Source of the DNA: Owenweeksia sp.
GTDB lineage: Bacteria > Bacteroidota > Bacteroidia > Flavobacteriales > Schleiferiaceae
Direction: 5' to 3'
DNA length: 61,414 bases
NCBI GenBank assembly: GCA_028277105.1
Contig: JANQHO010000174.1
Span: 1-61,414 of the forward strand
Under the pieces are notes generated by a model. That model did not search any database, was not told where the DNA came from, and was given only the letters and a program-made list of their open reading frames with translations. This document shows, one piece after another, positions 4,143 to 47,145 of the stretch (positions are counted from its first letter, which is position 1; every line of letters begins with the position of its first letter). Position numbers and translations under genes: made by a program.

Positions 4143-4700
4143 ATGATGAAAAACAGGACTGTAGTTCTTATCCTTCTTATAATTACTGCTATAATGACCC
4201 GCTTTATTCCTCACCTGCCAAATTTTACAGCGGTAGGAGCGGTAGCTTTATTTTCAGGAGCTGTATTCAAGAAGAAAAGCATTGCCTTTATGGCTCCCTT
4301 TGCCATAATGTTTTTGAGCGACCTCCTTATCAATAATGTGATTTTAGCCAGTTATTATTCCGGTTTTCAATGGCTTACTCCCGGGTGGTTTGGTATTTAC
4401 CTGTCGTTTTTTGTAACCGTTCTATTAGGTATGCTTATTCATTCTTACAAGGTATTGCCTATTGCAACAGGCGCTGTAGTTTCGGCAGCTGTTTTCTTTC
4501 TTATTACAAATTTTGGCTCCTGGATGGGTAATCCTCTTTATTCCAAAGATGTAACAGGCCTGATGGCAGCCTATACCGCTGGTATACCATTTTTTGCTAA
4601 TCAGCTGTTAGGTAATCTTTTTTACAGTGCCTTGTTATTTGGTATGGCCTGGTTGCTGGTAGATCGTACAGCACTTAAGCCTTTAAAGGTCAAGCACTGA
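4143..4700 (+). CDS. DUF6580 family integral membrane protein, putative transporter
   Basis: A 185-residue protein with about five to six hydrophobic segments (roughly 7-24, 30-60, 75-105, 110-130, 150-178). The N-terminal pattern TRFIPHLPNFTAVGAVALF and FLSDLLINN is characteristic of the DUF6580 group. The size and topology resemble solitary or ECF-type substrate-binding S components, but that is inference. Two ATGs (4143, 4146) are possible. It ends 6 bp from the convergent stop of the CobT-like gene, which together with the BtuG-like gene suggests a corrinoid or corrinoid-precursor link. Confidence 0.75.
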   Translation: MMKNRTVVLILLIITAIMTRFIPHLPNFTAVGAVALFSGAVFKKKSIAFMAPFAIMFLSDLLINNVILASYYSGFQWLTPGWFGIYLSFFVTVLLGMLIHSYKVLPIATGAVVSAAVFFLITNFGSWMGNPLYSKDVTGLMAAYTAGIPFFANQLLGNLFYSALLFGMAWLLVDRTALKPLKVKH

Positions 4701-11939: not shown

Positions 11940-13124
11940 TTAGCGTATTAAGTGAATCAACTCATTAATCTGCTTGCTATCTACTATAATTTTTAGTGAA
12001 TAAACTCCTGGCATTGCCTCTTTGCCATTTACTTTACCATCCCAATTAAACAAACCAGGCCCTCCTTCTTTTTTATAAACCACTTGCCCCCATCTATTAT
12101 AGATACTTGCATTGTATTTCTCTACACCATATATCCAAAATTCTAGATGATCGTTTAAGCCATCGCCATTGGGGGTAAAAGCATTTGGGATATGTAAGGA
12201 TAATTCTTCTGAAGTAATAATAATGGTGTCCGAATAAGTATAACAGGGTTCTTCTATATTATACCAATAGGTTCCTGGTTTGGTCACCACAATTCTTTCT
12301 CCTATGTAGCCTGTGTTCCAAAAGGTATGTGCTATCCCTGTAACCAAGCTTAGGCTGCCTCCCGGGTAGACAGAAGTATCATTAGGAAGCAAGTTTAATA
12401 ATTCAGGCCTGGTAGGTATTTTCTCTAGTCTTATATCATCTATTGCCATGGGAACACCATCATGAAAAGGAGGTGTATAATCTAAATTAAATGGTAGGAA
12501 TTTTAGAGTATGGACACTTTGAGAAGGTGTAAATATTATTTCACGTTTTTCCCACCATAGTTTGGGATTGGGGTTGTTATAGTTGGTTCTGATTGAAGAA
12601 GGCAGACTCTTGCCAATCAAGCTGTCATCAAGATATACAGCCCAAATTCCAGAGGTGTCTAAACCCATAAAACTCACAAATACTGCTTGGGCAAAAGAGA
12701 CTTTGTAGATGCAGTTTACATTGAAGCCCGAGATTCTCTGCATGATCCCTTCGTGACCATTTAGACTATCTTGATTAAATGTGTTAAAGTATTTGAGAAA
12801 AACTCCACGTACAAATGATTTCCCACTATATGGCTGGCCAGGACTAGGTCCATTTATTCCGGTTTGGTCAGGTGTAGCTGTTTCAGGCTCGCTCGCTTGA
12901 CATACATCATCATCAAAAGGCACACTAAGCCAGTGATCTGGTAATTGGGAAATTTGAGTGGGATCAAAATCCCCCTCCAAGTCTCCATTTTTTAATTGCT
13001 GGGAAAAAAGCTGGCTTGAATAACAAAACCCACAGGTGATAACTATAGCTTTTAACACCCACAGTTTAATTTTTTTAGAAAAAATCAGATTATCCAAACG
13101 AATATTGTGGTTATAGAAAATCAT
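11940..13124 (-). CDS. Secreted protein with T9SS type B (CHU_C / gliding-associated) sorting domain
   Basis: A 394-residue exported protein. The N-terminus has a long signal region ending QLFSQ (about residue 43). The body includes a segment NGDLEGDFD, SGKSFVRGVF and KVSFAQAVF, reminiscent of carbohydrate-binding jelly-roll domains in cell-surface proteins. The C-terminus (about 310-394) is a type B CTD: IPNAFTPNGDGLNDHLEF, IYNRWGQVVY, FNWDGKVNGKEAMPGVY. That domain directs export by T9SS. ATG 13124 is chosen over a TTG at 13172 because it starts the signal region. Its base composition is more AT-rich than the housekeeping genes around it. No strong promoter seen in the 289-bp upstream gap. 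Confidence 0.85.
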   Translation of the reverse strand: MIFYNHNIRLDNLIFSKKIKLWVLKAIVITCGFCYSSQLFSQQLKNGDLEGDFDPTQISQLPDHWLSVPFDDDVCQASEPETATPDQTGINGPSPGQPYSGKSFVRGVFLKYFNTFNQDSLNGHEGIMQRISGFNVNCIYKVSFAQAVFVSFMGLDTSGIWAVYLDDSLIGKSLPSSIRTNYNNPNPKLWWEKREIIFTPSQSVHTLKFLPFNLDYTPPFHDGVPMAIDDIRLEKIPTRPELLNLLPNDTSVYPGGSLSLVTGIAHTFWNTGYIGERIVVTKPGTYWYNIEEPCYTYSDTIIITSEELSLHIPNAFTPNGDGLNDHLEFWIYGVEKYNASIYNRWGQVVYKKEGGPGLFNWDGKVNGKEAMPGVYSLKIIVDSKQINELIHLIR

Positions 13125-13413
13125 GAATATACGAGCCGTAATACTCTGTTTAGGTTTTGCTGTGTTTCGCAAATATTATCATTATTAAAGCCTTGGCTCA
13201 ATATTAAGTTTTTGGCTTCGGTGCAGATTAAAACCAAACAGAAAGGGCGCAATAATAGCTTTGCTTTTGTCATGGTTTTATAAGGTGCTTTAACTTTAGC
13301 ATCTGCATAGTTTATTACAAACGTCAACAGAACTTATAAATTACTTAAATAGAAATAGATCGGAGGTTATGTCAAAAAGTTAATTGGTATTAGCGAAAGC
13401 CATTTCGAAAGCC

Positions 13414-14436
13414 TCAATGACCTTTATCTAGTTTGTCAAAGATTCTTTTTTGGATAATCTCTTTAGTTTGATCCGGGTAATTCACTTGGATAGGTGAAGA
13501 ATTGGCAACCCACCTTTTAAGCTCTTCTAACGTATTGTGGTTTAAAAGCTTAATTGAAGGTATGCCTAGAGTTTTCATAGCCTCAGCATTACAAAACTGT
13601 TCATATTGCCCTTTGATAGGGATCACAAATAATTTTTTACCCATATAAATAGCTTCAGCAGGACTTTCAAAGCCTGCTGATGTGAGCAAACCTTCACAAG
13701 AGGTAAAGCTTTTTATAAAGCTCTGGTTGCTTACAGGGGAAAAAGAAAGGTTTTTGTAGGAGTAAGCTTTTGTGCAGTTTTTTGAGAAAATATGCCATTC
13801 TACATTTTGTATGAGACTCAAAAATTCTGTTAGCTTTTCATCACTGTAAGCTGGTAGATAAACTGTATAATGCCCCTTATTACTTATCTGAGCCTGCCTT
13901 ATTTCACTGCGGATAACGGGTTTTTCGACAAAATCGTCAAAATGGTCAAAATGAAAACCTATACGGTCTGTACAGGGAGCATAATTTTTTAAAATGAACT
14001 CTCCTATCCGGCTTTTTTTTGAGGGGCGGGGAACCTTAGGTGACAAAAAAGCTACCTGATGTCCTAAGCCAAAACACCTCTTACCGCGAATCTTACAAGC
14101 CCAGGCAGTAATGAATTCAAAGTCATTTATGATAACATCATAGTTGTTAACAGGAAAAGAACGAACTTCATTTATGATTTTAAGTAAATCATTTTTAAAT
14201 ATTGTCTTCCAATAACTTAGCCCTCCTTTTCTATTGTACACAAAAGTAAGTCCTTTGCTACGGTAAGTAATTTCACAGGGTAGATTTACCTCACTTTGGT
14301 CTCCGCTAAGTACAATATCCAGTTCGCCAAACTGCTGTAATAGGGGTATTATTTCACGGGCCCGGGCTACGTGGCCATTGCCGGTGCCTTGAATGGCATA
14401 AAGTATCTTAAGCGGTTTTTTCGAGGAACTCGTCAA
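13414..14436 (-). CDS. GT28/MurG-like glycosyltransferase
   Basis: A 340-residue predicted glycosyltransferase. The N-terminal LKILYAIQGTGNGHVARA (9-26) matches the nucleotide-sugar transferase group of the MurG/MJ1255 type; the C-terminal half has LTSAGFESPAEAIYMGK and PIKGQYEQFCNAEAM, the usual sugar-nucleotide-binding region. Donor and acceptor are unknown. The frame is closed by a TGA just upstream, so TTG 14436, inside the 3' end of the LpxH-like gene (29-bp overlap), is the only reasonable start. Coupling to the LpxH-like gene suggests envelope glycolipid work. Confidence 0.78.
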   Translation of the reverse strand: MTSSSKKPLKILYAIQGTGNGHVARAREIIPLLQQFGELDIVLSGDQSEVNLPCEITYRSKGLTFVYNRKGGLSYWKTIFKNDLLKIINEVRSFPVNNYDVIINDFEFITAWACKIRGKRCFGLGHQVAFLSPKVPRPSKKSRIGEFILKNYAPCTDRIGFHFDHFDDFVEKPVIRSEIRQAQISNKGHYTVYLPAYSDEKLTEFLSLIQNVEWHIFSKNCTKAYSYKNLSFSPVSNQSFIKSFTSCEGLLTSAGFESPAEAIYMGKKLFVIPIKGQYEQFCNAEAMKTLGIPSIKLLNHNTLEELKRWVANSSPIQVNYPDQTKEIIQKRIFDKLDKGH

Positions 14437-15256: not shown

Positions 15257-15437
15257 AGTAAAGCTTTAAAGCTCTTGCAGTTAAGGCTGCAAAAGTGTCC
15301 CAAAGCTTCTTTTTAGATGTAAAGGCAAGTTTAACCTAAGTTTAAGCCTGTTAATCTTATAAACCTGCTATTGTTAACTTTTGAAAGCTTTGTCAAACTG
15401 GATAAGTTGGTAACTTAGCGTTAAAATACAAAGGATA

Positions 15438-16130
15438 ATGGATCTTACTCATATAGAAGACTTATTTGTAAATGCGGGCGGACAGTTTATCACTTCTGCT
15501 TTTGACCTTAGAGATAAACTCAGCAATATCAAAGCCTATGTATTTGACTGGGATGGTGTATTTAACAGCGGGCGCAAAGGCCTGGAAAACACCAGCGACT
15601 TCAGTGAAGTAGACTCTATGGGCGTAAATATGCTCCGTTTCGGGCATTTTCTGCAAAACAGCCAATCTCCTTATACGGTTATCATTACAGGTGAGGCCAA
15701 TCCTGCAGCTTTAAAATGGGCTGAACGGGAACACTTCAATGCTGTGTATACCCGTACTAAAGAAAAAGACCGGGCGCTCCTGCATTTTTGTGAAGAAAAT
15801 GGGATCACCCCTTCAGAGTTATGTTATTGTTACGATGATATCCTGGATATTCCGGTTGCCCGTATAGCTGGCATATCCCTAGCCGTAAAAAAGAACAGCA
15901 ACCCGGTTTTTATAGAGTATCTCAAGCATCGCGATTTGGCTGATTACTTTTCCGGTAGTGCTGGTCATGAGCACGCGGTCCGGGAGTTCTGCGAACTCTT
16001 GTTATGCCTTATGGGTAAACAGTTTGAAGTAATAGATAAAAGAGCTGACTTTGACGCTGATTATCAAAACTATTTTGAAAAGAGGCAGAAGACTGAAACT
16101 AAAATTTTGGAATACGGAAGGGATTATTAA
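15438..16130 (+). CDS. KdsC-like HAD-family phosphatase
   Basis: A 230-residue HAD hydrolase. Motif I reads FDWDGVF (39-45), motif II is IITGEAN, motif III includes KEKDRALLHF, and motif IV is CYDDILD. The compact form without a cap resembles KdsC, which removes phosphate from Kdo-8-phosphate, but it is longer at both ends than KdsC (about 170-190 residues), so the substrate may differ. Divergent from the LpxH-like and glycosyltransferase genes. Upstream TAACTTAG is a poor -7 match. It converges on a large PKD protein. Confidence 0.72.
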   Translation: MDLTHIEDLFVNAGGQFITSAFDLRDKLSNIKAYVFDWDGVFNSGRKGLENTSDFSEVDSMGVNMLRFGHFLQNSQSPYTVIITGEANPAALKWAEREHFNAVYTRTKEKDRALLHFCEENGITPSELCYCYDDILDIPVARIAGISLAVKKNSNPVFIEYLKHRDLADYFSGSAGHEHAVREFCELLLCLMGKQFEVIDKRADFDADYQNYFEKRQKTETKILEYGRDY

Positions 16131-33867: not shown

Positions 33868-34905
33868 ATGAAAAAGCTATTACCCATCACTTTACTTTTT
33901 GGTTTTATTTATTCCCTTTATGGCCAAAACGACCCTATGAGTATTCATACTATAGGTGTATCTGATCTTAACTACATAGAATTTGACTCTATAGTTACCT
34001 ACTCTGACACTGCCGCAGGTGCCATGTACCAAAGTGCTGGAAAATATATTATCCGAAATAGAAATAGGATTGTAGAAGGTTTCGCGAATTTTCAGTTAGT
34101 AAGCATTTCTTATATTTCCGAACAAACCCCTCAAGCCTACATCGTTTATGAAATAACCTCGTTTGCCACCAATGATACGGCAGGTGCTTACTTTTTTTAC
34201 GAAGATCAAAACGGGCGCGATACCAGCATTGTACAGGCCTTTTACTCTAATGGGGTGTTTACACCAACTATTGAAAACCGCTACTATTACGATAGCCAAG
34301 GTTTGATAGATTCCCTTAACTTATACTTTTATCAGTCTCCCACTACGCCTGTAAAACAAGTAACCCAAATTTATTACCGTTCCAACCGCTTAGACAGTAT
34401 TTACCATTTCTCTTTTTCGGCCATACCTACCCAACAGCCCGTAAAATACTATCACACCTATGGAGGAAATGGGCGCTTATTGTTAATAGAGGGGTATAGG
34501 GATGAAGGTATGGGCTATGAAGTCTTTATCTACTCAATAACACATCACAATTCTTTCGATGAGATTATTAAGATAGATAGCTATTCCAGGCTTTCCGGTT
34601 CTCAGGTTTTTAATGTTTCCCAAGTCGTAGAGTTCCACCAATCTCCCACTTTTGAAATCCCCGAAAACCGGTTGGCACAATTTGCGGTTTACCCCAACCC
34701 CTCCAGCGATTTCATCCAAATTGAAGGCTATGCCCCTTCAAAAAAGCTCAGCTACAATATTTATAATTTAAGTGGTATGCCCGTTAAAGAAGGAATTTTA
34801 AACACTCAAAGTATAGATATAAGCACTTTAAGCAATGGAACCTATATTTTAAAATTTTCTGAAAGCGGGTCCTGCCCCGGCCATTTCCGCTTCATTAAAA
34901 ATTAA
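33868..34905 (+). CDS. Secreted T9SS type A cargo protein, tandem copy 1
   Basis: A 345-residue exported protein (signal peptide ends LYGQ, about residue 20). Starts NDPMSIHTIGVSDLNYIEFD; the middle is a run of YYYDSQGLIDSLN-type segments; the end is a type A CTD (VYPNPSSDFIQIEGY ... NGTYILKFSESG). It is strongly similar along its length to the next gene, with 1378 bp between the two start codons. Function unknown. Followed by a terminator hairpin with G-U pairs that only form in the plus-strand RNA. Confidence 0.82.
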   Translation: MKKLLPITLLFGFIYSLYGQNDPMSIHTIGVSDLNYIEFDSIVTYSDTAAGAMYQSAGKYIIRNRNRIVEGFANFQLVSISYISEQTPQAYIVYEITSFATNDTAGAYFFYEDQNGRDTSIVQAFYSNGVFTPTIENRYYYDSQGLIDSLNLYFYQSPTTPVKQVTQIYYRSNRLDSIYHFSFSAIPTQQPVKYYHTYGGNGRLLLIEGYRDEGMGYEVFIYSITHHNSFDEIIKIDSYSRLSGSQVFNVSQVVEFHQSPTFEIPENRLAQFAVYPNPSSDFIQIEGYAPSKKLSYNIYNLSGMPVKEGILNTQSIDISTLSNGTYILKFSESGSCPGHFRFIKN

Positions 34906-34927
34906 TCTTCAATCTCTCTATCCCCGC

Positions 34928-34967
34928 CCAGTCAGTATTCCCTTAATATTGGCTGGCCCTTTTATTG
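34928..34967 (+). terminator. Intrinsic terminator after cargo copy 1
   Basis: Arms CCAGTCAGTATT (34928-34939) and AATATTGGCTGG (34945-34956) pair over 12 bp with two G-U pairs and a 5-nt loop, followed by CCCTTTTATTG. The wobble pairs mean it works only on the plus strand. Confidence 0.65.
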
Positions 34968-35006
34968 GGGATAATGTCATCGGCCTATCCATTAGCTCCC
35001 CTATTA

Positions 35007-35023
35007 TTTTAGTAACATTGTAG
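35007..35023 (+). promoter_or_regulatory. Duplicated promoter block, copy 1
   Basis: TTTTAGTAACATTGTAG is identical to 36384-36400, which lies directly before the gene at 36416. TAACATTG is one base off TAnnTTTG. Here no gene follows at the matching distance. Confidence 0.45.
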
Positions 35024-35150
35024 CCATAGCTTCAGGCTAAGAGAGGTTCCTTAAAGTTAAATAATTGTTAACACAGAACTTTTCGGCCAAACAAGCGTTT
35101 TACATAAATACGATTCATTACATGATTCAAAAACAGAGTTTAGCTTATCA

Positions 35151-35176
35151 AACCGGCTTCAGGCCGGTTTTTTTTT
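35151..35176 (+). terminator. Strong intrinsic terminator in leader of cargo copy 2
   Basis: AACCGGC and GCCGGTT form a perfect 7-bp stem with loop TTCAG, followed by nine T ending at 35176. It stands 70 bp before the ATG at 35246. Confidence 0.85.
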
Positions 35177-35245
35177 GCTATCCCAGCGCAACCATACACT
35201 TAGGGAAATCATCTTTCAGTTGTTTAACCCTTAATCATCATCAAA

Positions 35246-36286
35246 ATGAGAAGCATTTTACTCTGTATGGTTTTTACAACTACTTCGCTAGCTGTGCATG
35301 CCCAAACCGATCCTATGAATATTTTTCGGATTGATGCTTTACAACTGAACTACACTGAATTTGATTCCATAACGGTTTATAACGATACGGCTGCAGGAAC
35401 ACCGGTAGAAAGCTCGGCAAAGTATTTATTACAAAACCGCAGGTATATCCTAGAAGGGAAGGTCAATTTTATAGCTAATACTGTCTTTTATACATCGGAA
35501 CAAACTCCCCAGGCTTTTATAGTTTATGAGACTCATGCTACCCATGGCAATGATACTTTAGGCGCTTATTTCATCTATCGCAATAAACAAGGACGCGACA
35601 GCGCCATTGTGCAGAACACCGTAACCAACGGTGTTTATTCACCCATTTATGCCCATCACTATTATTTCGATAACCAGGGATTAATAGATTCGGTTAACAC
35701 TTTCTTTTTTCCGACCCCTACTAGCCCTGTAAGACAAATAAAGGATATTTATTACCGTTCTGGCAGCCGTATAGACAGTATGTACAGCTATTTCTTTACA
35801 CCCATACCCAGCGGCAAGCCGTTTAAATACATTTATGACTATGACAATAATGGCAAACTCTTACAGATAAATAGATTATCAGATATAGGCCCTGGTTACG
35901 AACCCTTCAGTAAAACGGTGATGTACCACAACAGCCAGGGAGAGATCATCAGAGAAGAGCTGTATATGAAAATGCAACCAACGGATCCTTTTACCATCGC
36001 CCAGGTAGTAGAATATTCCAAATCTCAAACCTTTGATATTCCTGAGAATAAACTAGATCGATTATCAGTATTCCCCAATCCTGCTAAAGACATCATCCAG
36101 CTTGCAGGATATAATGCCTTGCAAAAACTAGACTATGAAGTTTATGGTTTGAGCGGTAAACTCATTAAAGAAGGCCATTTAGAGCAACAAAGTCTGGATA
36201 TCAGCACATTTAAAAAAGGTATATACATCCTGAAAATTTCCGGTGACGGATTCGCTCCCCAAAGCTTCCGTCTCCTTAAAAATTAA
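35246..36286 (+). CDS. Secreted T9SS type A cargo protein, tandem copy 2
   Basis: A 346-residue exported protein (signal peptide ends VHAQ, about 20), nearly collinear with the gene at 33868: TDPMNIFRIDALQLNYTEFDS, FYTSEQTPQAFIVYE, YYFDNQGLIDSVN, and a type A CTD (VFPNPAKDIIQLAGY ... KGIYILKISGDG). It differs by many substitutions, so the duplication is not recent. Followed by a terminator and then the promoter block of the DUF5996-like gene. Role unknown. Confidence 0.82.
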   Translation: MRSILLCMVFTTTSLAVHAQTDPMNIFRIDALQLNYTEFDSITVYNDTAAGTPVESSAKYLLQNRRYILEGKVNFIANTVFYTSEQTPQAFIVYETHATHGNDTLGAYFIYRNKQGRDSAIVQNTVTNGVYSPIYAHHYYFDNQGLIDSVNTFFFPTPTSPVRQIKDIYYRSGSRIDSMYSYFFTPIPSGKPFKYIYDYDNNGKLLQINRLSDIGPGYEPFSKTVMYHNSQGEIIREELYMKMQPTDPFTIAQVVEYSKSQTFDIPENKLDRLSVFPNPAKDIIQLAGYNALQKLDYEVYGLSGKLIKEGHLEQQSLDISTFKKGIYILKISGDGFAPQSFRLLKN

Positions 36287-36415: not shown

Positions 36416-37222
36416 ATGCCCAAACCTTTATACACTTCCACTTTCAATCAAAGTGAAATTCAAATTCATCATTTAAGCCAGTTTTTAGCGGTTACGGCTA
36501 AACATTTTCTGGAAGAAAAAGCTGACGACAGCCATACTAATGTGGGTTGGGAAAACCATTACATTACCAGCCGCCTTATTCAGAATTTACAGTTGCAAGT
36601 GAACGTCCCTGAATTTCAATTGGAAATATGGGCAAACAGAACTTTAGAAAAGCCTTTGGAAGCGGATGGCAAGAGTAAAAGTGAACTATTTGAAGCATTA
36701 AAAGAGGAATTAAACCATTTGAGTTTAGATACTTCCACTTTTGAAAATAAACTGCATTACGAATTACCCGAACACGCTCTGGATAAAGGCGCTGCCTTTG
36801 CAAAACCTGCGGCTGAAGATCTACAAGCCTGGATAAACCTCAGGGATTTGGCCCAACAGTGCATGATCAAACTCAACACAGCTTTTAACAACAGTTCTGA
36901 AATCCGCATTTGGCCACACCATTTTGACACAGGCGTTTATTTTGAATTGAATACCGAAGGCACTAAATCCATAGGCGCTGGTTTGGCAATAGCTGATAGG
37001 GTGATAAAAACCCCCTACTTCTATATTTACGGTTGGCAAAAAGATCAGGAGATTGATTTTGCTACTAAGGCCGGATTAAAGAACGGACGCTGGATCATTG
37101 AAAACTGGAAAGGGGCGGTTTTGCCAGCCGATGATTTAAGTCAACTGGATAAGCCTTTGGAAACTGCCAATGATTTCTTCGAACAAAGCGTTAACTGGTA
37201 CCGTTCCATTTTAAATTTCTGA
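36416..37222 (+). CDS. Uncharacterised protein with weak DUF5996-like C-terminus
   Basis: A 268-residue cytoplasmic protein with no signal peptide. I do not recognise the first half (FNQSEIQIHHLSQFL, AVTAKHFLEEKADDSHTNVGW). The C-terminal part has IRIWPHHFDTGVYFEL, TPYFYIYGW and ENWKGAVLPADDL, which weakly resembles DUF5996. It starts 15 bp after a duplicated promoter block and is followed 20 bp later by the Rieske-ThDP enzyme, so they form an operon. A shared role is inferred only from that arrangement. Confidence 0.68.
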   Translation: MPKPLYTSTFNQSEIQIHHLSQFLAVTAKHFLEEKADDSHTNVGWENHYITSRLIQNLQLQVNVPEFQLEIWANRTLEKPLEADGKSKSELFEALKEELNHLSLDTSTFENKLHYELPEHALDKGAAFAKPAAEDLQAWINLRDLAQQCMIKLNTAFNNSSEIRIWPHHFDTGVYFELNTEGTKSIGAGLAIADRVIKTPYFYIYGWQKDQEIDFATKAGLKNGRWIIENWKGAVLPADDLSQLDKPLETANDFFEQSVNWYRSILNF

Positions 37223-37242: not shown

Positions 37243-39174
37243 ATGAGATGGATCAAAATTCTAGACGATAAAAAATTCCTGCAGGAAGGTCGTGTGATGA
37301 CCGTGGAAGCCAACCACAAACAATTTTGCCTGGCGCATTACAAAGGCGAGTACAGCGCTTTGGACAATAAATGTCCCCACCAGGGTGGGCCCTTGGGCGA
37401 AGGCAGTATCGAAAAAGGTTTGTTGCGCTGCCCCTGGCACGGTTGGGATTACGATCCTATCTCCGGTAAAGCGCCCGGTTTTGACGATGGGGTGGAGAAA
37501 TTCCCGCTTAAAGTTGAAGGAGATGAAATTTACATCGGTCTGGAAGAGGAAAAACCACGCGAAACCACCGTTTCTGACCTGATGGTAGAAACCATGATCA
37601 ACTGGGGCGTAGATACCGTATTTGGTATGGTAGGCCATTCCAACCTCGGTTTAGCCGATGCTTTCCGCGAAAAGGTGAATGAAAAGAAAATGCAGTATAT
37701 CGCCATCCGTCACGAAGGTGGTGGCGCTTTTGCCGCTTCGGCTTACGGCAAGTTAACAGGCAGGCCCGCTGCCTGCTTTGCTATTGCCGGGCCCGGTTCT
37801 ACCAATATGTTTACCGGTATGTGGGACGCCAAAGTAGACCGCGCTCCCCTACTCGCCTTAACGGGACAGGTAGCCACCCAGGTTTTGGGAACAGGCAACT
37901 TCCAGGAATTAGACCTGGTAAAGGCTTTTGGCTCTGTAGCCGAATTCAACCATCGCGTGCAAAGCGATTCCAAACATACCGAATTAATGGCTTTGGCCGT
38001 AAAACACGCCATTTTAAACCGGGATGTGAGTCACCTTACTTTTCCGGACGAAATACAGCAATTGCCCGCCAAGGGTAAAAAAGCCCAAACTCCGGAAGGC
38101 CGTATTACTCCTTTGGATATTACGCCTCCTCAATCCATGCTGAAGCAAGCCATTGAAATGATCAAAGCAGCTAAACGCCCTGTGATTATTGTGGGACACG
38201 GCAGCCGTTTTCACATGGATACCATTACGGAACTGGCAGAAGAACTGGATTGCCCAGTGCTGACCACTTTTAAAGGTAAGGGTTTGATCTCTGATCATCA
38301 TGCTTTAGGTTGTGGCGTATTGGGACGCAGCGGTACGCCCATTGCCTCCCACTTTATGAACGAAAGCGACCTTTTAATAGTGATGGGGGCTTCCTTCTCC
38401 AACCATACGGGCATTACTCCAAAGAAACCTACCATCCAAATTGATTTTGACCCTCTGGCCTTGAGTAAATTCCATCGGGTAGATTGTGCCGTTTGGGGCG
38501 AAATATCGGTTACGGCTCAATTAATCATAGAGGCCGTTAAAGGCCAGCACCAGGCTGAAAGCCAAAGGGAAGAAATTGCGCAACGCTGGAGCATTTGGCA
38601 GGCCGAAAAGCAAAAGCGCTTAAGCGAAGACCGCGGACAGGGCATCAGCGCTTCCTGGGTGTTCCATACCATGAATGAATTAGCGCCCGAAAATGCCGTT
38701 ATGTGCGTGGATGTGGGCAATAACGCCTATTCCTTTGGGCGCTATTACGAGAGCAAAAACAACAGCTTTTTAATGTCCGGTTATTTGGGTTCCATTGGTT
38801 TTGCCTTACCTGCCTCCATGGGCGCCTGGGCTGCGGTAAAAAATGAAAGACCTGTGATTGCTGTAGCTGGCGATGGCGGTTTTGGTCAGTATATGGCTGA
38901 AATGATGACCCTGGTAAAGTATAACATGGACGTTAAAGTGATTATTCTCAATAACAATGAATTAGGTAAAATATCCAAGGAGCAACGGGCTTTGGAAGTA
39001 GATGTTTGGGCTACCGATCTGGTAAACCCTGATTTTGCTGCCCATGCCAGCAGCATGGGAGCTAAAGGTTTAAAGGTCAGGGACAAAGACCGGCTTCACG
39101 CTGCTATGAAGGAAGTGCTGGAGCACGATGGCCCCGCCTTGCTGGAGATCTGTACGGATGTGATGTTGGTTTAA
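37243..39174 (+). CDS. Rieske 2Fe-2S domain fused to pyruvate-oxidase-like ThDP enzyme
   Basis: A 643-residue fusion. Residues about 1-100 form a Rieske domain with ligands C44, H46 (CPHQGG) and C63, H66 (CPWHGW). Residues about 108-643 form a ThDP enzyme: catalytic Glu158 in IRHEGGGAFAASAYG, GPGSTNMFTG, GNFQELDLVKAF and, near 544, GDGGFGQYMAEMM with Asn about 27 residues later, the ThDP/Mg motif. The nearest relatives in pattern are pyruvate oxidase and acetolactate synthase (VSHLTFPDEIQ resembles PoxB). The reaction is not known; the Rieske centre suggests an electron-transfer step on a 2-oxoacid. Its 3' end is duplicated at 44018-44080. Confidence 0.87.
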   Translation: MRWIKILDDKKFLQEGRVMTVEANHKQFCLAHYKGEYSALDNKCPHQGGPLGEGSIEKGLLRCPWHGWDYDPISGKAPGFDDGVEKFPLKVEGDEIYIGLEEEKPRETTVSDLMVETMINWGVDTVFGMVGHSNLGLADAFREKVNEKKMQYIAIRHEGGGAFAASAYGKLTGRPAACFAIAGPGSTNMFTGMWDAKVDRAPLLALTGQVATQVLGTGNFQELDLVKAFGSVAEFNHRVQSDSKHTELMALAVKHAILNRDVSHLTFPDEIQQLPAKGKKAQTPEGRITPLDITPPQSMLKQAIEMIKAAKRPVIIVGHGSRFHMDTITELAEELDCPVLTTFKGKGLISDHHALGCGVLGRSGTPIASHFMNESDLLIVMGASFSNHTGITPKKPTIQIDFDPLALSKFHRVDCAVWGEISVTAQLIIEAVKGQHQAESQREEIAQRWSIWQAEKQKRLSEDRGQGISASWVFHTMNELAPENAVMCVDVGNNAYSFGRYYESKNNSFLMSGYLGSIGFALPASMGAWAAVKNERPVIAVAGDGGFGQYMAEMMTLVKYNMDVKVIILNNNELGKISKEQRALEVDVWATDLVNPDFAAHASSMGAKGLKVRDKDRLHAAMKEVLEHDGPALLEICTDVMLV

Positions 39175-39204
39175 GAATTACTTTTAAGACACATTTAGAG
39201 TTGC

Positions 39205-39212
39205 TAAGTTTG
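39205..39212 (+). promoter_or_regulatory. -7 box (TAAGTTTG) for adhesin gene
   Basis: TAAGTTTG matches TAnnTTTG, with TTTT about 20 bp upstream. It lies between the ThDP stop and the adhesin ATG at 39277, giving the adhesin its own promoter. Confidence 0.5.
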
Positions 39213-39276
39213 CAGGTGTGCAATAGCTAACCCTTATCAGCAGCTGTAGATGAATCTAATAACCAATGGCTACTCA

Positions 39277-42200
39277 ATGAAAAAGCATTTTTTTCTCCTA
39301 GCCTTCTTTTATTTATTGAACATAACTTCTTTACTATCACAATTATGCGCTACTCCTGTTATTGCACCATGGTCTGAAGATTTTGATGGAACGGACTTTA
39401 TTTCAAGCCAAACAGGTCTAGGTTCAATAAATAATTGTTGGCATAGAACACCTCTCTCTGATTATTTTTGGACTCCAGGTGAGGGGTGGTTATCACATCA
39501 AATTAATACTGGCCCACATCAAGATCATACTACTGGATCGGGTCAGTACCTTTTCACCAGATCAACTTTCTCTTTTCCTCCAGTCTTACGACCACATAAT
39601 GCTTTTGTAGAAACCCCTTTAATTGACCTATCTAGCCTCACTGCACCGGAACTCACTTTTTGGTATCATATGTTTGGACACGATATTGGTAGTTTGGAAG
39701 TAGAAATAGACAATGGTTCAGGATATATAAAATTGGAAACCTTTATTGGACAACAACATTATTCCAGTCGTTCTGCTTGGACTGAAAGACTTATAGACCT
39801 TTCTGCTTACACCAATGACACTATACGCCTTAGGTTCCATGCTAATAAACCATTTTTCTCCCCAGCAGCAGATGTGGCTATTGATGACATAGATATTCAT
39901 GAGACACCTTCCTGTGCCAAACCGTATAACTTAACTGTTACTGCTAAAACTGGTAATTCTGTTACTTTAAATTGGACGCCTAGAGGGGCCGCCAATTGGC
40001 AAATTGAATATGGCCACACAGGGTTTATTCAGGGCAGCGGAACAATTATAACAGCTGACACTATCCCTTTTACAATTACTGGTTTAAACTCATCAACAAC
40101 CTATGATTTTTACGTTCGGGAAAGTTGTGATAGTTTAAATCATAGTAATTGGTCAAACCCAACGTATACTACTACAGACTGCTTACCTAGAGTAGCACCC
40201 TGGTTTGAAAATTTTGATGGGGTGGATTTTCTCATCGATTTAGGTTTTATAGGTGATACAGATATTGTAAATGACTGCTGGTATAGAACACCTCTTGCAT
40301 TATATTTTTGGGCACCTGCTACTTCTTACCGTAGTTTTTACAATACTGGGCCAACTCAGGATCATACAACTGGATCTGGTCAATATCTTTTTACAGAAAC
40401 TTCTTTATCCTTACCTAATCCAACTTTACCACTTAATGCTTTTATAGAAACTCCTTATATTGATTTATCAAACCTTTCAGTACCTGAGCTTACTTTTTGG
40501 TACCATATGTTTGGGGCAGATATAGGGAGCTTGGAAGTAGAAATTGACAACGGTTCTGGCTATACTAATCTAACTACTATCTTAGGTCAGCAGCAAAATT
40601 CAGGTAATGCTCCTTGGGTTGAAAGTATTATTAACCTATCTGCATATACAAACGATACTATTCGCATAAGATTAAAAGCAACAAAACCTACTTTTGGGAC
40701 AGCATCTAAAATTGCTGTTGATGATATTTCTATAGATGCAGCCCCTACTTGCCCTAAGCCTCTTTCTTTGACATTAGATGGTTCCAGCTTTAATTCCATT
40801 ACCTTAAGTTGGGTAACTGGAGGGGCCACAAACTGGCAAATTGAATATGGCCCCCAAGGCTTTACTTTGGGTACGGGAACAATAGTGTCAGCTTCTACTA
40901 ATCCGTATACTGTAAGCGGCTTGCTCCCTTTTACTACGTATGATTTTTACGTTAGAGATAGTTGTGGGATAAGTGATGTGAGTAATTGGAGTGCTGTTGT
41001 ATCTGCTATAACTGATTGTTTACCCATTACTGCTCCATGGTCAGAAGATTTTGATAGTGTGGACTTTGTACCAAGTCTAAGCTTTGCTGGTACAGGCACC
41101 ATTAATAATTGTTGGGACAGAACACCACTCAATACTTATTTTTGGGCACCAGGGCCTCCTGCCCACATTCCTTCAAATACTGGCCCAATTGCAGATCATA
41201 CAACTGGATCAGGTCAATACATTTTTTCAGAATCATCTTTTCCCCCTAACCCCTTACAGCCATTAGGTGCTTTTGTAGAGACTCCTTTTATAGATCTATC
41301 AGCCCTTACAGCTCCTGAACTTACCTTTTGGTATCATATGTATGGACAAGATATTGATAGTTTAGAAGTTGAAATTGATAATGGTTCAGGTTATATTAAC
41401 TTAATAACTATTACTGGTCAACAGCAAAGTTCAAGTAATGACCCATGGCTTGAAAGTATAATAAGCCTTACCGCTTACGCAAATGATACCATTAGAATTC
41501 GATTTAAGGCTACAAAACCAATTTTTGGTAATACAGCCAATATTGCCATCGATGATATTGCCGTTAATGAAACCCCTTCTTGCCCTAAGCCACAGTCTTT
41601 ATCTATTACAGGTGGCATTTCCAATTCAATTACATTAAGTTGGAAAACGGGAGGGGCTACTAATTGGCAGCTTGAATACGGTATTCACGGATTTACTCAT
41701 GGCACAGGTACCTTAATCAATGTTTCTTCCAATCCCTTTACCATTTCAGGGCTTTCTCCAAGTACAGCTTACCAATTTTATGTAAGGGATAGTTGCGGTA
41801 TGGGAGACGTTAGTGAATGGTCTGCACCTATTTCCGACACTACAAATTGTATTGCTTTGGTGGCTCCATGGAGTGAGGGTTTTGATAGTAGCGTATGGCA
41901 GCAAGGAACAGGTTCACTTAATAATAATGACTCTATTGACCCTTGTTGGGATAGAAATCCAATTACAGGTGGAAATAAGTGGGGCACGGGTTTTGGCGCC
42001 ACTTTATCTGGTGGCACATCAGGTCCATTGCAGGATAATAGCGGAACAGGCAAATATATATATGTCGAAGCCAGTGCAACTGATGGTACAGCAGAGTTAG
42101 AAACACCTCCTTTACTAATTCCTAAAACAATGGACGACCCTGTGTTGACATTCTTTTACCATATGTTTGGTTCTGGAATTAATAGCTTATCGATAAGCAT

Positions 42201-43884
42201 AGATACTGGCGTGGGTTATGGAGCACCCGTTTTAACCTTAACCGGACAGCAACAGTTTTCCCAAACCGACCCTTGGAAAAGTGATACTGTAGATTTAACT
42301 GCCTACAGGGGAACCACTATGAGAATTAAGTTTTCTGGTACTGAGACAGGTTTCCAAGGTGATATGGCTATAGATGATATTAAAATTGATAATGATTGTT
42401 CTGGTCCTAACAATCTGGCATTTAGCAACATTTCTTTTACTACAGCTAATGTCACATGGGATACAACTGGCAGCAACTTTGATATTGAACTAACTTTTGC
42501 TGGCTCTCCTCAAGGTTCAGGAACAATTATTAGCGGGGTTTCCTCACCTTACAGTTACAATAATCTTACTCCAAATACTGCCTATAAGGTTTATGTAAGA
42601 AAAAATTGTGGTTTCTCTCAAAGCCATTGGTTAGCCGATACTTTTACAACTGCGATTTGCCCTGCGACAACAGTTAGCTTTAGTTCTACAGCTACTTTTC
42701 TATCTGTATCTTTCGATGGATCAGCTTCTATTAATGCAGATACATTGTTTTGGGATTTTGGCGATGGAAATTCAAATTCAGGAACATCTCCCATTGTTAA
42801 TCACAATTACAATTCTGCAGGCACTTATACCGTAACCCTTTGGGGTAAAAATATTTGTGGATTAAACGATACCATTAGTCAAACCATTACCATCTGTGAT
42901 ATACCCTCAGCTGGATTTGGTTACAATAATAACCTGTTATCAGTCAGTTTTAATGGCTCTTCTACGATAAATTCAGATAGTATTTATTGGAACTTTGGTG
43001 ATGGCAATAACGACACAGGCTTTTCGGCTACTCATACTTATTTAATCGCAGGCAGCTATAAAGTTACCTTATACGCTTATAATGTTTGTGGAGATATTGA
43101 TTCTACTTCACAAACAGTGGTTGTTTGTGATAGTATCGCTGCAGACTTTAGCATTAATCAAAGTGGCGATACAGTTAATGTAATAGCTGATACAAATCTA
43201 GGGGCTACATCCTATTACTGGGATTTAGATGGATTTGTCGCAACAGGCTTTTCAGTTACAAGAGTATTTTCTGGAGGAGGTATTAAAACTATCTCTTTAA
43301 TTACGGTAAATGATTGTGGCGATTCAGCTAGCATTTCTAAAATTGTAAACCTATGCGAACTTCCAGTAGCTGATTGGACTTACAACATAATCCAAACTAG
43401 TGTAAATACTCTAGAAGTTCAATTTGACGGTAGTGCCTCACAAAATGCAACAATATATAATTGGGACTTTGGTGATGGTACACAAATTAGTTCAGGAGCT
43501 TTACCTACCCATACCTATACTAATCCCAATTTATTATACACGGTCTGCTTGAGAGTAGAAAACTCCTGTGGTGACTTCGATGAATTGTGTAATAGGTTAG
43601 ATCAAATAGGCTTAAATGAAGAATTGATTGACAATTCCATTAATATATACCCAAACCCAGCTAGCGATAAAATAATACTGAGCTGGGAAAAATCTGAAAT
43701 AATATCTATAGTTGCTGTATACAATCTTCAGGGTAAGAAAATTGTAGAAATAAATACCAGTGAACTGAATAAAATAGAAAAAAAGCTCGAGTTAAATGTC
43801 AAAAGTTGGCCTTCCGGTATATATATGTTCCAAGTAGAAACCACTGATAATAGCATTAATTATCACAGTATAGTTAAGAATTGA
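39277..43884 (+). CDS. Giant secreted repeat protein: four MAM/Fn3 units, PKD domains, T9SS type A sorting domain
   Basis: A 1535-residue exported protein; signal peptide ends SLLSQ (about 22). Four units of about 277-279 residues begin near residues 30, 307, 586 and 863; each has a MAM-like sandwich (APWSEDFDG, DHTTGSGQY, ELTFWYHMFG, EIDNGSGY, IDDI) and an Fn3 part (SWTTGGATNW-type, YDFYVRDSCG). Unit 4 is diverged. About four PKD domains follow (1129-1441; WDFGDGNSNSG, WNFGDGNNDTG, WDLDGF, WDFGDGTQIS), then a type A CTD (INIYPNPASDKIIL). Likely surface adhesin. ATG 39277 starts the signal peptide. AT-rich against the ThDP gene. Confidence 0.87.
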   Translation: MKKHFFLLAFFYLLNITSLLSQLCATPVIAPWSEDFDGTDFISSQTGLGSINNCWHRTPLSDYFWTPGEGWLSHQINTGPHQDHTTGSGQYLFTRSTFSFPPVLRPHNAFVETPLIDLSSLTAPELTFWYHMFGHDIGSLEVEIDNGSGYIKLETFIGQQHYSSRSAWTERLIDLSAYTNDTIRLRFHANKPFFSPAADVAIDDIDIHETPSCAKPYNLTVTAKTGNSVTLNWTPRGAANWQIEYGHTGFIQGSGTIITADTIPFTITGLNSSTTYDFYVRESCDSLNHSNWSNPTYTTTDCLPRVAPWFENFDGVDFLIDLGFIGDTDIVNDCWYRTPLALYFWAPATSYRSFYNTGPTQDHTTGSGQYLFTETSLSLPNPTLPLNAFIETPYIDLSNLSVPELTFWYHMFGADIGSLEVEIDNGSGYTNLTTILGQQQNSGNAPWVESIINLSAYTNDTIRIRLKATKPTFGTASKIAVDDISIDAAPTCPKPLSLTLDGSSFNSITLSWVTGGATNWQIEYGPQGFTLGTGTIVSASTNPYTVSGLLPFTTYDFYVRDSCGISDVSNWSAVVSAITDCLPITAPWSEDFDSVDFVPSLSFAGTGTINNCWDRTPLNTYFWAPGPPAHIPSNTGPIADHTTGSGQYIFSESSFPPNPLQPLGAFVETPFIDLSALTAPELTFWYHMYGQDIDSLEVEIDNGSGYINLITITGQQQSSSNDPWLESIISLTAYANDTIRIRFKATKPIFGNTANIAIDDIAVNETPSCPKPQSLSITGGISNSITLSWKTGGATNWQLEYGIHGFTHGTGTLINVSSNPFTISGLSPSTAYQFYVRDSCGMGDVSEWSAPISDTTNCIALVAPWSEGFDSSVWQQGTGSLNNNDSIDPCWDRNPITGGNKWGTGFGATLSGGTSGPLQDNSGTGKYIYVEASATDGTAELETPPLLIPKTMDDPVLTFFYHMFGSGINSLSISIDTGVGYGAPVLTLTGQQQFSQTDPWKSDTVDLTAYRGTTMRIKFSGTETGFQGDMAIDDIKIDNDCSGPNNLAFSNISFTTANVTWDTTGSNFDIELTFAGSPQGSGTIISGVSSPYSYNNLTPNTAYKVYVRKNCGFSQSHWLADTFTTAICPATTVSFSSTATFLSVSFDGSASINADTLFWDFGDGNSNSGTSPIVNHNYNSAGTYTVTLWGKNICGLNDTISQTITICDIPSAGFGYNNNLLSVSFNGSSTINSDSIYWNFGDGNNDTGFSATHTYLIAGSYKVTLYAYNVCGDIDSTSQTVVVCDSIAADFSINQSGDTVNVIADTNLGATSYYWDLDGFVATGFSVTRVFSGGGIKTISLITVNDCGDSASISKIVNLCELPVADWTYNIIQTSVNTLEVQFDGSASQNATIYNWDFGDGTQISSGALPTHTYTNPNLLYTVCLRVENSCGDFDELCNRLDQIGLNEELIDNSINIYPNPASDKIILSWEKSEIISIVAVYNLQGKKIVEINTSELNKIEKKLELNVKSWPSGIYMFQVETTDNSINYHSIVKN

Positions 43885-44017
43885 GATTAAACCTAGCTAA
43901 GTGCTTATTAAAAAGACTGTTTAAAAGGGAGTTTTTTATAAGCCCTTTATAAATATTAACATAAGTCGAATCCAAACAACCCCACCCCATTATTATCACT
44001 TTCTCTATAACAGAAAT

Positions 44018-44080
44018 GAAGTCCTCGAGCACGAAGGCCCTGCCCTGCTGGAGATCTGTACGGATGTGATGTTGGTGTAA
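44018..44080 (+). pseudogene. Remnant/duplicate of the 3' end of the Rieske-ThDP gene
   Basis: These 63 bp repeat 39112-39174 in the same orientation and reading frame, including the stop codon: 57 of 63 bases agree. Five of six differences are silent; the only amino-acid change is Asp to Glu (EHDGPALLE versus EHEGPALLE). No further upstream similarity was found. It ends 3 bp before the stop of the convergent MarR gene. This is either a relic of a second copy or one end of a direct repeat around the adhesin gene. Confidence 0.85.
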
Positions 44081-44083
44081 TAC

Positions 44084-44707
44084 TTATAACTTAAACCGGT
44101 CTATGATCTCCTCCCGGCTCTTTTCAGCGTGTAGCTTATCGTGAAAACGGTTGAGCTTGTCCAGTACCGGCAGGAGGTTCTTCTTTTCCATCTCACTGAG
44201 GTTGCCTACCAGCAAACTGGCCAGGGCGGTCATTTTCCGGGTTGAAATGTCGGTGATATTTTTTCCTGTTTCGGTTAAGCTCACCCGGTGTACTCTTTTA
44301 TCCTGCTCATCGGCAAAATCCTCGATCAGGCCGTCCCTTTTCATCCTCTTCAATACTTCAAAGCAGGTACTGGGCTCCATAACAAATGATTCTACGATCA
44401 TCTTTTTAGTAGGAGTGCCCATAGCTTCTATGGTCTTGAGAATACCAAAATCCTCAAAACTCACTATTGGTATGTCCCTGAAAGTGAGCTTCATCCATTT
44501 ATTTATAAAGTTGAATAAACCTCCGAGCAAATAAGCTGTTTTAGTATCCAATCCTCCCCGGTTAACCCCCTCTTGATCAGTGTTTATTTCAGGTTGGCCC
44601 TTTTTGCCCTGATGATGTAGCCACTGAGCAAAGTCTTGCATGTTGTCAGATTGGGTTTCCACATGGAATTGTTCCCAGTAAGTTAAAAGCTCAATGGCTT
44701 TTTTCAT
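44084..44707 (-). CDS. MarR-family transcriptional regulator
   Basis: A 207-residue winged-helix regulator. The DNA-binding part lies about residues 75-165: FGILKTIEAMGTPTKKMIVES, CFEVLKRMKRDGLIEDF, DEQDKRVHRVSLTETG. It is longer than classical MarR (about 140), with an extra 70 residues at the N-terminus (from MKKAIELLTYWEQFH). It is divergent from the TonB-dependent receptor gene with a symmetric operator between them, so autoregulation and control of the receptor are likely. Ligand unknown. Confidence 0.87.
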   Translation of the reverse strand: MKKAIELLTYWEQFHVETQSDNMQDFAQWLHHQGKKGQPEINTDQEGVNRGGLDTKTAYLLGGLFNFINKWMKLTFRDIPIVSFEDFGILKTIEAMGTPTKKMIVESFVMEPSTCFEVLKRMKRDGLIEDFADEQDKRVHRVSLTETGKNITDISTRKMTALASLLVGNLSEMEKKNLLPVLDKLNRFHDKLHAEKSREEIIDRFKL

Positions 44708-44726: not shown

Positions 44727-44758
44727 ACAAATATAAAACAATATTGTAATACATTTGT
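44727..44758. promoter_or_regulatory. Divergent promoters and dyad operator between MarR and TonB-receptor genes
   Basis: The minus-strand -7 box TATATTTG (44728-44735) serves the regulator; the plus-strand -7 box TACATTTG (44750-44757) serves the receptor. Both lie in a 32-bp dyad centred at 44742.5 in which 13 of 16 base pairs are symmetric. Its core is the perfect palindrome ACAATATTGT (44738-44747) and its outer arms are ACAAAT and ATTTGT. Confidence 0.75.
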
Positions 44759-44781
44759 TCTGGCTTATCAAATACTGTAAA

Positions 44782-47145
44782 ATGAAATTACCATTCTTCC
44801 TGCTCTTCAGTTTACTCATAAGTTTCGGCCTTCAGGCACAAAACAATGGAAAAATAGAAGGAACCGTTAAAGATGTCCGCACAGGGGAACTACTTATAGG
44901 GGTAGCTGTTCAGGTAGAGGGCACTCAGATTGGCGGAGTTACTGACGTAAATGGCTTCTACCAGATAGCGGATGTGCCGGCCACTACCTATAACCTCACC
45001 GCTTCTTACATAGGCTATAAAAACAGTACCCAGTTTGGGGTGGTGGTGCGTTCGGGTGGCACTACCGATATCAATTTTCAACTGGAAGAAACTACCAGTG
45101 AGTTGGAAGATGTTACGGTGATTGCCAACCCTTTTGAAAAAGTAGATGAAACTCCCCTCTCTATTCAACGCCTGTCTCAGGAAGAAGTAGCCACCTATCC
45201 GGGAGGTAATAATGATATTGCCAAAGTGGTACAGTCGCTGCCCGGGGTTTCCGGCTCGGCAGCCGGTTTCCGCAATGATGTGATCATACGCGGAGGGGCG
45301 CCTAACGAAAATGTATATTATTTAGATGGGATCGAGATCCCCAACATCAACCACTTCGCTACCCAGGGCAGTGCCGGAGGGCCGGTAGGCTTGCTCAACG
45401 TGAGTTTTTTTGAAGGGGTTACCCTCAGCAGCAGCTCCTTTGGCGCACAATACGATAATGTATTATCCGGAGTATTGCAATTTGACCAACGCGATGGCAA
45501 CAGAAGGGAAGTTGAGGGTAACGTAAGGGTGAGCGCCAGTGAAGCGGCCTTAACAGTGGAAGGCCCTTTATTCAAAGGCGATAAGGAAATGAGTAATACC
45601 TCTTACATCGCTTCGGTAAGGCGGTCGTACCTCCAGTTTCTATTCAATATTATAGATCTCCCCTTTTTACCTGATTACTGGGATTACCAGTATAAAGTTA
45701 CCCATAAGCTTTCCAAATTCGATGAGCTTATTTTTACCGGGGTGGGCTCTATTGATGATCTTGCTATCAACGCACCGGAGGAGTTCAGCCCCGAACAGCA
45801 GGCCACCCTGGATCAATTGCCTATTATCCGGCAATGGACCACTACCTCTGGTTTGAGCTGGCGCAGGCGCTTTAAGGATTATTCCGGTTATATGCTCACC
45901 AGCCTTAGCACCAATATCCTTAACAATAATTTTCAGCAATACGAGGATAATGTGAATGAACAAGGGCTTTATTTTAACAATGACTCTAGGGAATGGGAAA
46001 CCAAGCTACGCTACGAGTATACCAGGTTTTCCGGCCTTTGGGAATTCAGAAGCGGTTTTACGGCCCAACATGCCTTTTACTCCAACGCCACCTTAAACCT
46101 GGTGAATGACTTTGCTTTTGACAATTCCATCGATTTTTACCGCTACGGCTTTTTTGGTCAGGCCAACCGCAGCTTTTTTACCGATCAGTTAAATATTTCC
46201 GGAGGCTTTCGCTTTGATGGCAATACCTTTACCGATAATGGCAACGATATTTTGCGCACTTTCAGCCCCAGGCTGTCAGCCTCTTTAAAACTGGACGATG
46301 CCGAAAAATGGACCTTAAATGCTTCGGTAGGGCGTTATTTCAAAATACCCCCTTACACTATTTTAGGTTTTGTAGACAACCAGGGAAATCTGGCTAACCG
46401 CAGTGTGGAGTATATCCAAAGTGACCACTATGTAGCGGGAATAGAATACTTGCTGAACCGCTCGGCCCGCATTACCGTAGAAGGCTTTTACAAGCAATAC
46501 GACAATTATCCGGTATCCAATACCGATAGTGTTTCCCTGGCTAACCTAGGAGGTGGTTTTGAGGTGCTGGGCAATGAGCCCGTTTCCAGCGTGGGTTTGG
46601 GTAGAACTTATGGTGTAGAACTCCTCTTTCAGCAAAAATTATCCAGAAATTTTTACGGCATACTGGCCTTAACGTTTTACAAAAGCGAGTATACGGGCTT
46701 TGACCGGGATGAATACCTGTCCTCTGTATGGGACAACGGGCAGTTGATCACCTTTACCGGGGGGTATAAATTCGGCAAAAACTGGGAAGTCAGTCTGCGG
46801 GTACGCTACCTGGGCGAAACACCTTACGCCCCTATAGACCAGCAGGCCACCCTGGCTAATTATCCCGCTATTGTCAGGGATTACCAGCGTTTGGGCGAGG
46901 TACAGTTGGGGGCTTTTAACCAAACTGATGTTCGTATTGACAAGAAATTCAACTTCAAAAACTGGACTTTGGATATTTTCCTCGATGTACAAAATGTTTT
47001 GGCCAGCCAGTTGCCCAGCGAGCCTTCTTTTGGGCTCGATCGCGATGGTGATGGTAATGTGATCACTCCTGAAGCTCTGGTGCAAATTGAAGAAGTGGAT
47101 AATTCTTCGGTTTTACCTTCTTTAGGGATAGTGATTGATTTTTAA
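44782..47145 (+). CDS. TonB-dependent receptor with carboxypeptidase-regulatory-like N-terminal domain
   Basis: A 787-residue outer-membrane receptor. Signal peptide ends LQAQ (about 20), then a CarboxypepD_reg-like domain (EGTVKDVRTGELLIGVAVQVEG split as GTVKDVRTGE and LLIGVAV), a plug domain (about 130-240; QSLPGVSGSAAGFRNDV, IRGGAPNENVYYLDGIEIP) and a 22-strand barrel. It is not SusC-sized, and no SusD follows, so it more likely takes up a siderophore, metal or small ligand than a glycan. ATG 44782 (MKLPFF) is chosen over TTG 44755, which lies within the -7 box. MarR control is likely. Confidence 0.9.
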   Translation: MKLPFFLLFSLLISFGLQAQNNGKIEGTVKDVRTGELLIGVAVQVEGTQIGGVTDVNGFYQIADVPATTYNLTASYIGYKNSTQFGVVVRSGGTTDINFQLEETTSELEDVTVIANPFEKVDETPLSIQRLSQEEVATYPGGNNDIAKVVQSLPGVSGSAAGFRNDVIIRGGAPNENVYYLDGIEIPNINHFATQGSAGGPVGLLNVSFFEGVTLSSSSFGAQYDNVLSGVLQFDQRDGNRREVEGNVRVSASEAALTVEGPLFKGDKEMSNTSYIASVRRSYLQFLFNIIDLPFLPDYWDYQYKVTHKLSKFDELIFTGVGSIDDLAINAPEEFSPEQQATLDQLPIIRQWTTTSGLSWRRRFKDYSGYMLTSLSTNILNNNFQQYEDNVNEQGLYFNNDSREWETKLRYEYTRFSGLWEFRSGFTAQHAFYSNATLNLVNDFAFDNSIDFYRYGFFGQANRSFFTDQLNISGGFRFDGNTFTDNGNDILRTFSPRLSASLKLDDAEKWTLNASVGRYFKIPPYTILGFVDNQGNLANRSVEYIQSDHYVAGIEYLLNRSARITVEGFYKQYDNYPVSNTDSVSLANLGGGFEVLGNEPVSSVGLGRTYGVELLFQQKLSRNFYGILALTFYKSEYTGFDRDEYLSSVWDNGQLITFTGGYKFGKNWEVSLRVRYLGETPYAPIDQQATLANYPAIVRDYQRLGEVQLGAFNQTDVRIDKKFNFKNWTLDIFLDVQNVLASQLPSEPSFGLDRDGDGNVITPEALVQIEEVDNSSVLPSLGIVIDF

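Follow-up and report, generated by a model that had tools for sequence, protein, structure and literature searches.

A second, probably displaced and mainly silently diverged 3' end of a Rieske-ThDP enzyme gene beyond a single adhesin-like gene in Owenweeksia sp.

The window analyzed here is the whole stretch of 61,414 nucleotides of contig JANQHO010000174.1 (assembly GCA_028277105.1, Owenweeksia sp.). On its forward strand, a gene at 37243–39174 encodes an intact fused enzyme with a Rieske part and a ThDP-dependent part of the acetolactate synthase or pyruvate oxidase-like type (Pfam Rieske and TPP_enzyme_N, M and C). It is preceded on the same strand by a conserved gene (36416–37222) that matched no Pfam family. 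In a tblastn comparison with the loci of 80 relatives, a homologue of this gene lay within about 4 kb of the ThDP gene in many of them. On the other side are a convergent gene for a MarR-type regulator (44084–44707, reverse strand; Pfam MarR), a forward-strand gene for a TonB-dependent receptor (44755–47145; Pfam) and a gene for an acetyl-CoA hydrolase/transferase.

The best plasmid matches of the Rieske-ThDP fusion (58–60%) were in haloarchaea, and the closest genome matches (up to 72%) were scattered over Bacteroidota. No close copy of this widely transferred enzyme was present in those members of its own family that were sampled. Elsewhere in the window, two adjoining T9SS-tailed genes (33868–36286) are tandem paralogues, in which a 134-bp stretch is 71% identical at a spacing of 1378.

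Repeat search and blastn showed that the terminal 66 bp of the Rieske-ThDP gene (39109–39174) recur at 44015–44080 on the same strand, in the same frame and with the same stop codon. The two tails are identical at 59 of 66 positions (E about 1e-19 within the window), and the repeat is real, beyond chance. A genome-wide DNA search found these two copies and no third. The earlier note had reported a repeat of 63 bp (39112–39174 and 44018–44080) in the same direction and frame with 57 identical bases. This was reproduced over that span, and 39109 and 44080 proved slightly better bounds than 39112 and 44080. The edges of the repeat were sharp: the sequences upstream of the two tails were unrelated to each other beyond chance, and so were those downstream. 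The left copy serves the ThDP gene as its functional 3' end. The right copy, which we interpret as a displaced and presumably native ThDP 3' end, stops 3 bp short of the convergent MarR stop codon (44084), in agreement with the earlier description.

Between the tails lies one gene only, as had been claimed. Its longest open reading frame spans 39250–43884 on the forward strand, and the 1535-residue product probably starts at the second ATG (39277), which opens a signal-peptide-like sequence. The product of 39277–43884 contains four MAM, four fn3 and three PKD domains and a Por_Secre_tail (Pfam). From these domains we regard it as a putative T9SS-secreted adhesin-like protein. The intergenic sequence before the gene (39175–39276) was unlike that after the right copy. 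The AT-rich spacer behind it (43885–44014) had no significant second copy in the genome and is thus not a dispersed repeat, and it did not resemble the part of the ThDP gene that precedes the tail. The absence of a transposase or integrase, noted before, held in the Pfam scans: no such domain was present in nine flanking proteins or in six proteins at the locus.

The nearest paralogue of the adhesin gene in this genome is 60–68% identical. It appears split over two contig ends (C54:17213–18409 and C111:92562–96179) and is probably one gene broken by assembly at internal repeats. No flanking gene-end repeat was found at these two contig ends.

The base composition changed abruptly at the adhesin gene. 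The GC3 values of the ThDP gene (0.519), the MarR gene (0.519), the TonB-dependent receptor gene (0.507) and the acetyl-CoA hydrolase/transferase gene (0.496) rank among the highest 7% in a sample of 155 ORFs of the genome. The GC3 of the adhesin gene, 0.256, was the lowest among the 155. Other large secreted repeat proteins of the genome, including the nearest paralogue (0.377), mostly had values of 0.36–0.44, so that the class alone does not account for the low GC3. The adhesin gene therefore looks inserted between the ThDP and MarR genes, breaking a uniform block of high GC3.

The GC3 match also suggested that MarR was the original neighbor of the ThDP gene. The natural reading is an older state in which ThDP was directly convergent with MarR, the intact gene now standing at one side of the insert and its partial remnant beside MarR. 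This polarity would follow from composition and from analogy with other loci (below), since no empty-site relative of the locus was present among the genomes compared. The nearest ThDP proteins were 72% identical and lay in unrelated gene neighborhoods, with no MarR homologue within those loci. Nor was a close MarR homologue found in 88 family or 395 phylum genomes, and the genus is represented by one genome in the comparison set.

The two tails resemble each other far more than they resemble any relative. Over 63 bases, the left tail matched the 80 relatives at 45 positions at most and the right tail at 43 at most, versus 57 between the two. Both end in EICTDVMLV, in which the C and M are rare at those positions in the 80 relatives, and the lineage-specific end CTDVMLV is common to both. 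This suggests that the tails are two alleles of one lineage, both of which would have been functional while they diverged.

The differences were mostly silent; the earlier note had called them almost all silent. In the 63-bp span, five of the six differing codons were synonymous, and the sixth changed D to E (P 0.007 against random change). When the three scars of this genome were pooled (two are described below), 13 of 18 differing codons were synonymous (P = 4e-5). Against a model in which the copies began identical and the right one then decayed, P was 0.006 for the pooled codons and a marginal 0.06 for the window alone. A tail freshly copied and then decayed thus fits less well than two alleles. 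The silent bias indicates that most of the divergence predates the insertion, as is expected of donor and recipient alleles. The bases at the mismatches of the right copy (C, C, A, T, C and G) were not adenine-biased, so the TR/VR signature of a diversity-generating retroelement was absent, and no reverse transcriptase domain was found in the neighbor proteins scanned.

Copies of gene ends outside genes were then sought in 4.14 Mb of Bacteroidota sequence. This included about 0.64 Mb of the present genome (about 16% of it), picked partly around adhesin paralogues and secreted repeat proteins. The same scar was present at two more loci of this genome (C129 and C158) and in three other genomes (L043, L045 and L265).

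In C129 (L241, 1–4600), a gene for an ABC-F ATPase ends at 1115, and copies of its tail are found at 2569–2616 (90%) and 4550–4594 (80%). The first interval contains a gene for a 367-aa protein, and the second an Mrr restriction endonuclease gene with a ParDE toxin-antitoxin pair. With the gene's own end, there are thus three ABC-F tails in a row, and the 3'-end scars form a stacked array. ABC-F genes were also found in genomes of the family. In C158 (L247, 8147–12955), a gene of the methylmalonyl-CoA-mutase type (B12-binding, MeaB and mutase domains) ends at 11740. Its last 73 bp recur at 12883–12955 (85%), and a gene for a 355-aa protein lies in between.

In L043 (4698–7992), an LTXXQ-family gene in a sigma-factor gene cluster is followed by a gene for a 727-aa Ig-domain protein and then by an in-frame copy of its own last 258 bp (84.6%). 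In L265 (974–6933), two genes are inserted between neighbors, with a 206-bp 3'-end copy (95%) and a reciprocal 78-bp 5' copy of the next gene; such duplication of both gene ends is the pattern of a long target duplication. The targets, the cargo and the repeat lengths (48–258 bp) differed among the cases. The search for further cassettes behind 3' gene ends that the earlier note had proposed therefore did find them, with mixed cargo rather than adhesins.

Several other candidates were rejected. L091 was a neighboring paralogue at the edge of a locus, L138 a contig-end repeat, and L279, L195 and L246 tandem repeats. L221 was a near-identical paralogue, L024 a full paralogue pair, and L067 a decayed copy with no gene between.

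In all samples together, seven clean downstream 3' scars were counted versus one distant 5' copy (L173), in addition to the reciprocal 5' copy of L265. The sample of this genome gave four 3' scars and no 5' scar. The excess of 3' over 5' is suggestive only, because the sample was small and chosen partly around secreted repeat proteins.

These parallels also bear on the quality of the assembly. The genome is a draft of 174 contigs, and a misassembly or a chimera of strains might have joined the two tails. The longest exact run shared by them is only 31 bp, and similar scars occur in independent assemblies, which makes a misassembly unlikely. The insert is, moreover, one intact 4.6-kb gene of different composition, and the contamination estimate is 0.5%. 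We consider an artefact extremely improbable.

One of the Roseivirga loci allowed the polarity to be read directly. In L045, a gene for a 295-aa protein lies between the malic enzyme gene (12596–14206) and a decayed copy of its tail (15292–15354), and a DUF427 gene comes next. In L044, the malic enzyme is 93.7% identical and DUF427 follows after about 70 bp with no gene between, which represents the empty site. In L027, the distance from the malic enzyme gene to DUF427 is likewise short, about 57 bp. In L045, the stretch that runs from the right tail through the intergenic region into DUF427 (15305–15964) aligned continuously with L044 8303–8970 (81% over 669 bp). At the left copy, similarity to L044 stopped at the stop codon. 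Because it is the right tail, not the left, that aligns on into DUF427, it can be identified as native, and the incoming unit consisted of the left gene end and the new gene. A third Roseivirga (L038) has a homologue (70%) of the new gene between ThDP and DUF427, and thus the gene circulates in the Roseivirga group.

The earlier note had offered, as its second explanation, that a second ThDP copy was mostly deleted. In this case ThDP would have been doubled, the adhesin gene would have entered between the duplicates, and all but the last 66 bp of the second ThDP would have been lost. The silent-biased divergence is compatible with two once-functional copies. On the other hand, three events are needed (a duplication, an insertion and a precise large deletion), and both flank boundaries are sharp. 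Remnants of 5' ends would be expected as often as those of 3' ends, at variance with the four and zero seen in the sample of this genome, and the polarised parallel in L045 is a displaced native tail instead. We regard a decayed tandem duplicate as quite unlikely.

The other explanation in the earlier note, a cassette that was placed at the 3' end and brought its own version of that end, was supported by the step in GC3, the mostly silent divergence and the parallels, with L045 polarised; the interpretation of the note as a whole, with its two alternatives, is partly supported. We consider it probable that a homology-anchored insertion brought in a donor ThDP 3' end with the adhesin gene, and that the native tail was displaced in the process. 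The route would be homology-facilitated illegitimate recombination (HFIR) or a single crossover of a circularised fragment.

From this structure we infer the donor, the route of DNA uptake and the route of joining. The fragment would have come from a related bacterium in which the adhesin gene lay just downstream of the ThDP gene. Homology in the ThDP coding region would have anchored the fragment on one side. On the other side, with no extended homology, it would have been attached to the resident ThDP gene about 66 bp short of the gene's end, either through HFIR or because the fragment was end-joined into a circle that then integrated by a single crossover. The product would be a whole ThDP gene with a donor 3' part, the donor adhesin gene, the displaced native tail of 66 bp and the native neighbor MarR, and no enzyme would need to travel with the insert. 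Accordingly, the 3' part of the present intact ThDP gene is probably donor-derived, and the right edge of the spacer (44014) is the presumed illegitimate junction. A homology anchor with a non-homologous join near the gene end would explain the intact gene, the displaced tail, the silent bias, the variable length of the tails and the absence of an enzyme.

At the junction, a search for microhomology of 3–10 bp revealed at most a few ambiguous bases (44015–44018), the donor sequence beyond the junction lying outside the comparison. A ComEC homologue is encoded in the genome; many bacteria for which competence is not known also have ComEC. HFIR events are rare and mostly accompanied by loss of recipient DNA, and in an E. 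coli conjugation test, single-crossover products with duplications of 109–950 bp were commoner than true HFIR (PMC3240628). The single-crossover version is favored here, since recipient DNA was duplicated, not deleted. The seven-to-one asymmetry of 3' and 5' scars is not obviously expected from a direction-blind process and, small as the numbers are, is suggestive evidence against homology-anchored insertion.

Site-specific integration would be favored by this preference for 3' ends. A small non-autonomous cassette would have carried an attachment site mimicking the ThDP 3' end, the integrase would have acted in trans or been lost, and the native tail would have become the right copy. The same geometry is predicted, the repeat contains the 31-bp identical core (P about 0.1 by chance), and the two successive scars at one ABC-F gene look like tandem integration. 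Against this, no integrase was found in the insert or among the neighbor proteins scanned, and four tyrosine-recombinase matches were found genome-wide, one of them weak and none on this contig. By eye, the ThDP, ABC-F and mutase tails had no common core (the two ABC-F scars counting as one target). The repeat lengths ranged from 48 to 258 bp across the cases, and the 29-bp core was not found in viral contigs. Site-specific integration is therefore, in our estimate, unlikely. A broader version, which we hold very doubtful, is that a trans-acting integrase-like or recombination-assisted system places single-gene cassettes (surface proteins, or Mrr with ParDE) directly after housekeeping genes, with a replacement 3' tail in every cassette, so that scars would pile up at 3' ends.

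Integration at 3' ends is familiar from genomic islands with tyrosine recombinases, which enter at tRNA genes and at the 3' ends of some protein genes; the insert supplies a replacement 3' end and the target stays whole. The target at the present locus likewise stays whole through a replacement 3' end. It differs in that there is no integrase in the insert, the cargo is a single gene, and no common core was seen among the cases.

Insertion with long target duplication was described for restriction-modification genes of Helicobacter pylori by Nobusato et al. 2000, as summarised in PMC1643837 and PMC4978471. In that pattern a long direct repeat of the target stands on both sides of the insertion, and no transposase is involved, as here. 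Applied to the window, the last 66 bp would have been copied exactly and the redundant right copy would have drifted. The tie of this pattern to restriction-modification genes (PMC1643837) may be set beside the C129 cassette that contains the Mrr endonuclease and ParDE, and the L265 duplication spans two gene ends. Drift from identity, however, predicts mostly non-synonymous differences. The mainly silent differences between the repeats here speak against simple copying of a resident target, though only marginally so for the window alone. We judge this explanation highly improbable for the window.

The HFIR and single-crossover duplications of PMC3240628 resemble the present locus in that one side is anchored by homology and the other is not, no mobile-element enzyme takes part, and the single-crossover products partly duplicate the anchor gene. 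They differ in that what is seen here is only an evolutionary product between divergent alleles, in which recipient DNA was duplicated and not deleted. They are known from naturally transformable bacteria and from E. coli conjugation, and the present host, with its ComEC homologue, would be a candidate for competence.

HFIR was also proposed for the T6SS effector-immunity arrays of Vibrio cholerae, which have displaced effector 3' ends (PMC5361080). In these arrays, newly acquired genes are added after a conserved anchor, the older genes and an old effector 3' end are moved downstream, and repeated additions can become stacked. The two stacked scars at the ABC-F locus of C129 resemble this stacking. 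Unlike in Vibrio, the targets here are metabolic or housekeeping genes that stay intact, and the cargo is not an effector-immunity pair; it is a surface protein at this locus and an Mrr endonuclease with ParDE elsewhere.

In Bacteroidota genomes, single genes for surface proteins or defence often appear without any mobile element. Scarring by a 3' tail seems to be a recurrent, not fundamentally new, way to gain single genes without a transposon. A 3' tail that was displaced and has diverged silently can be read as a scar, which shows where and in which direction the insertion took place, which gene was the anchor and how closely the donor was related. Counts of such scars across genomes would measure how frequently genes are gained by homology-anchored insertion. 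The excess of 3' over 5' scars, if it held, would indicate a polarity in the process.
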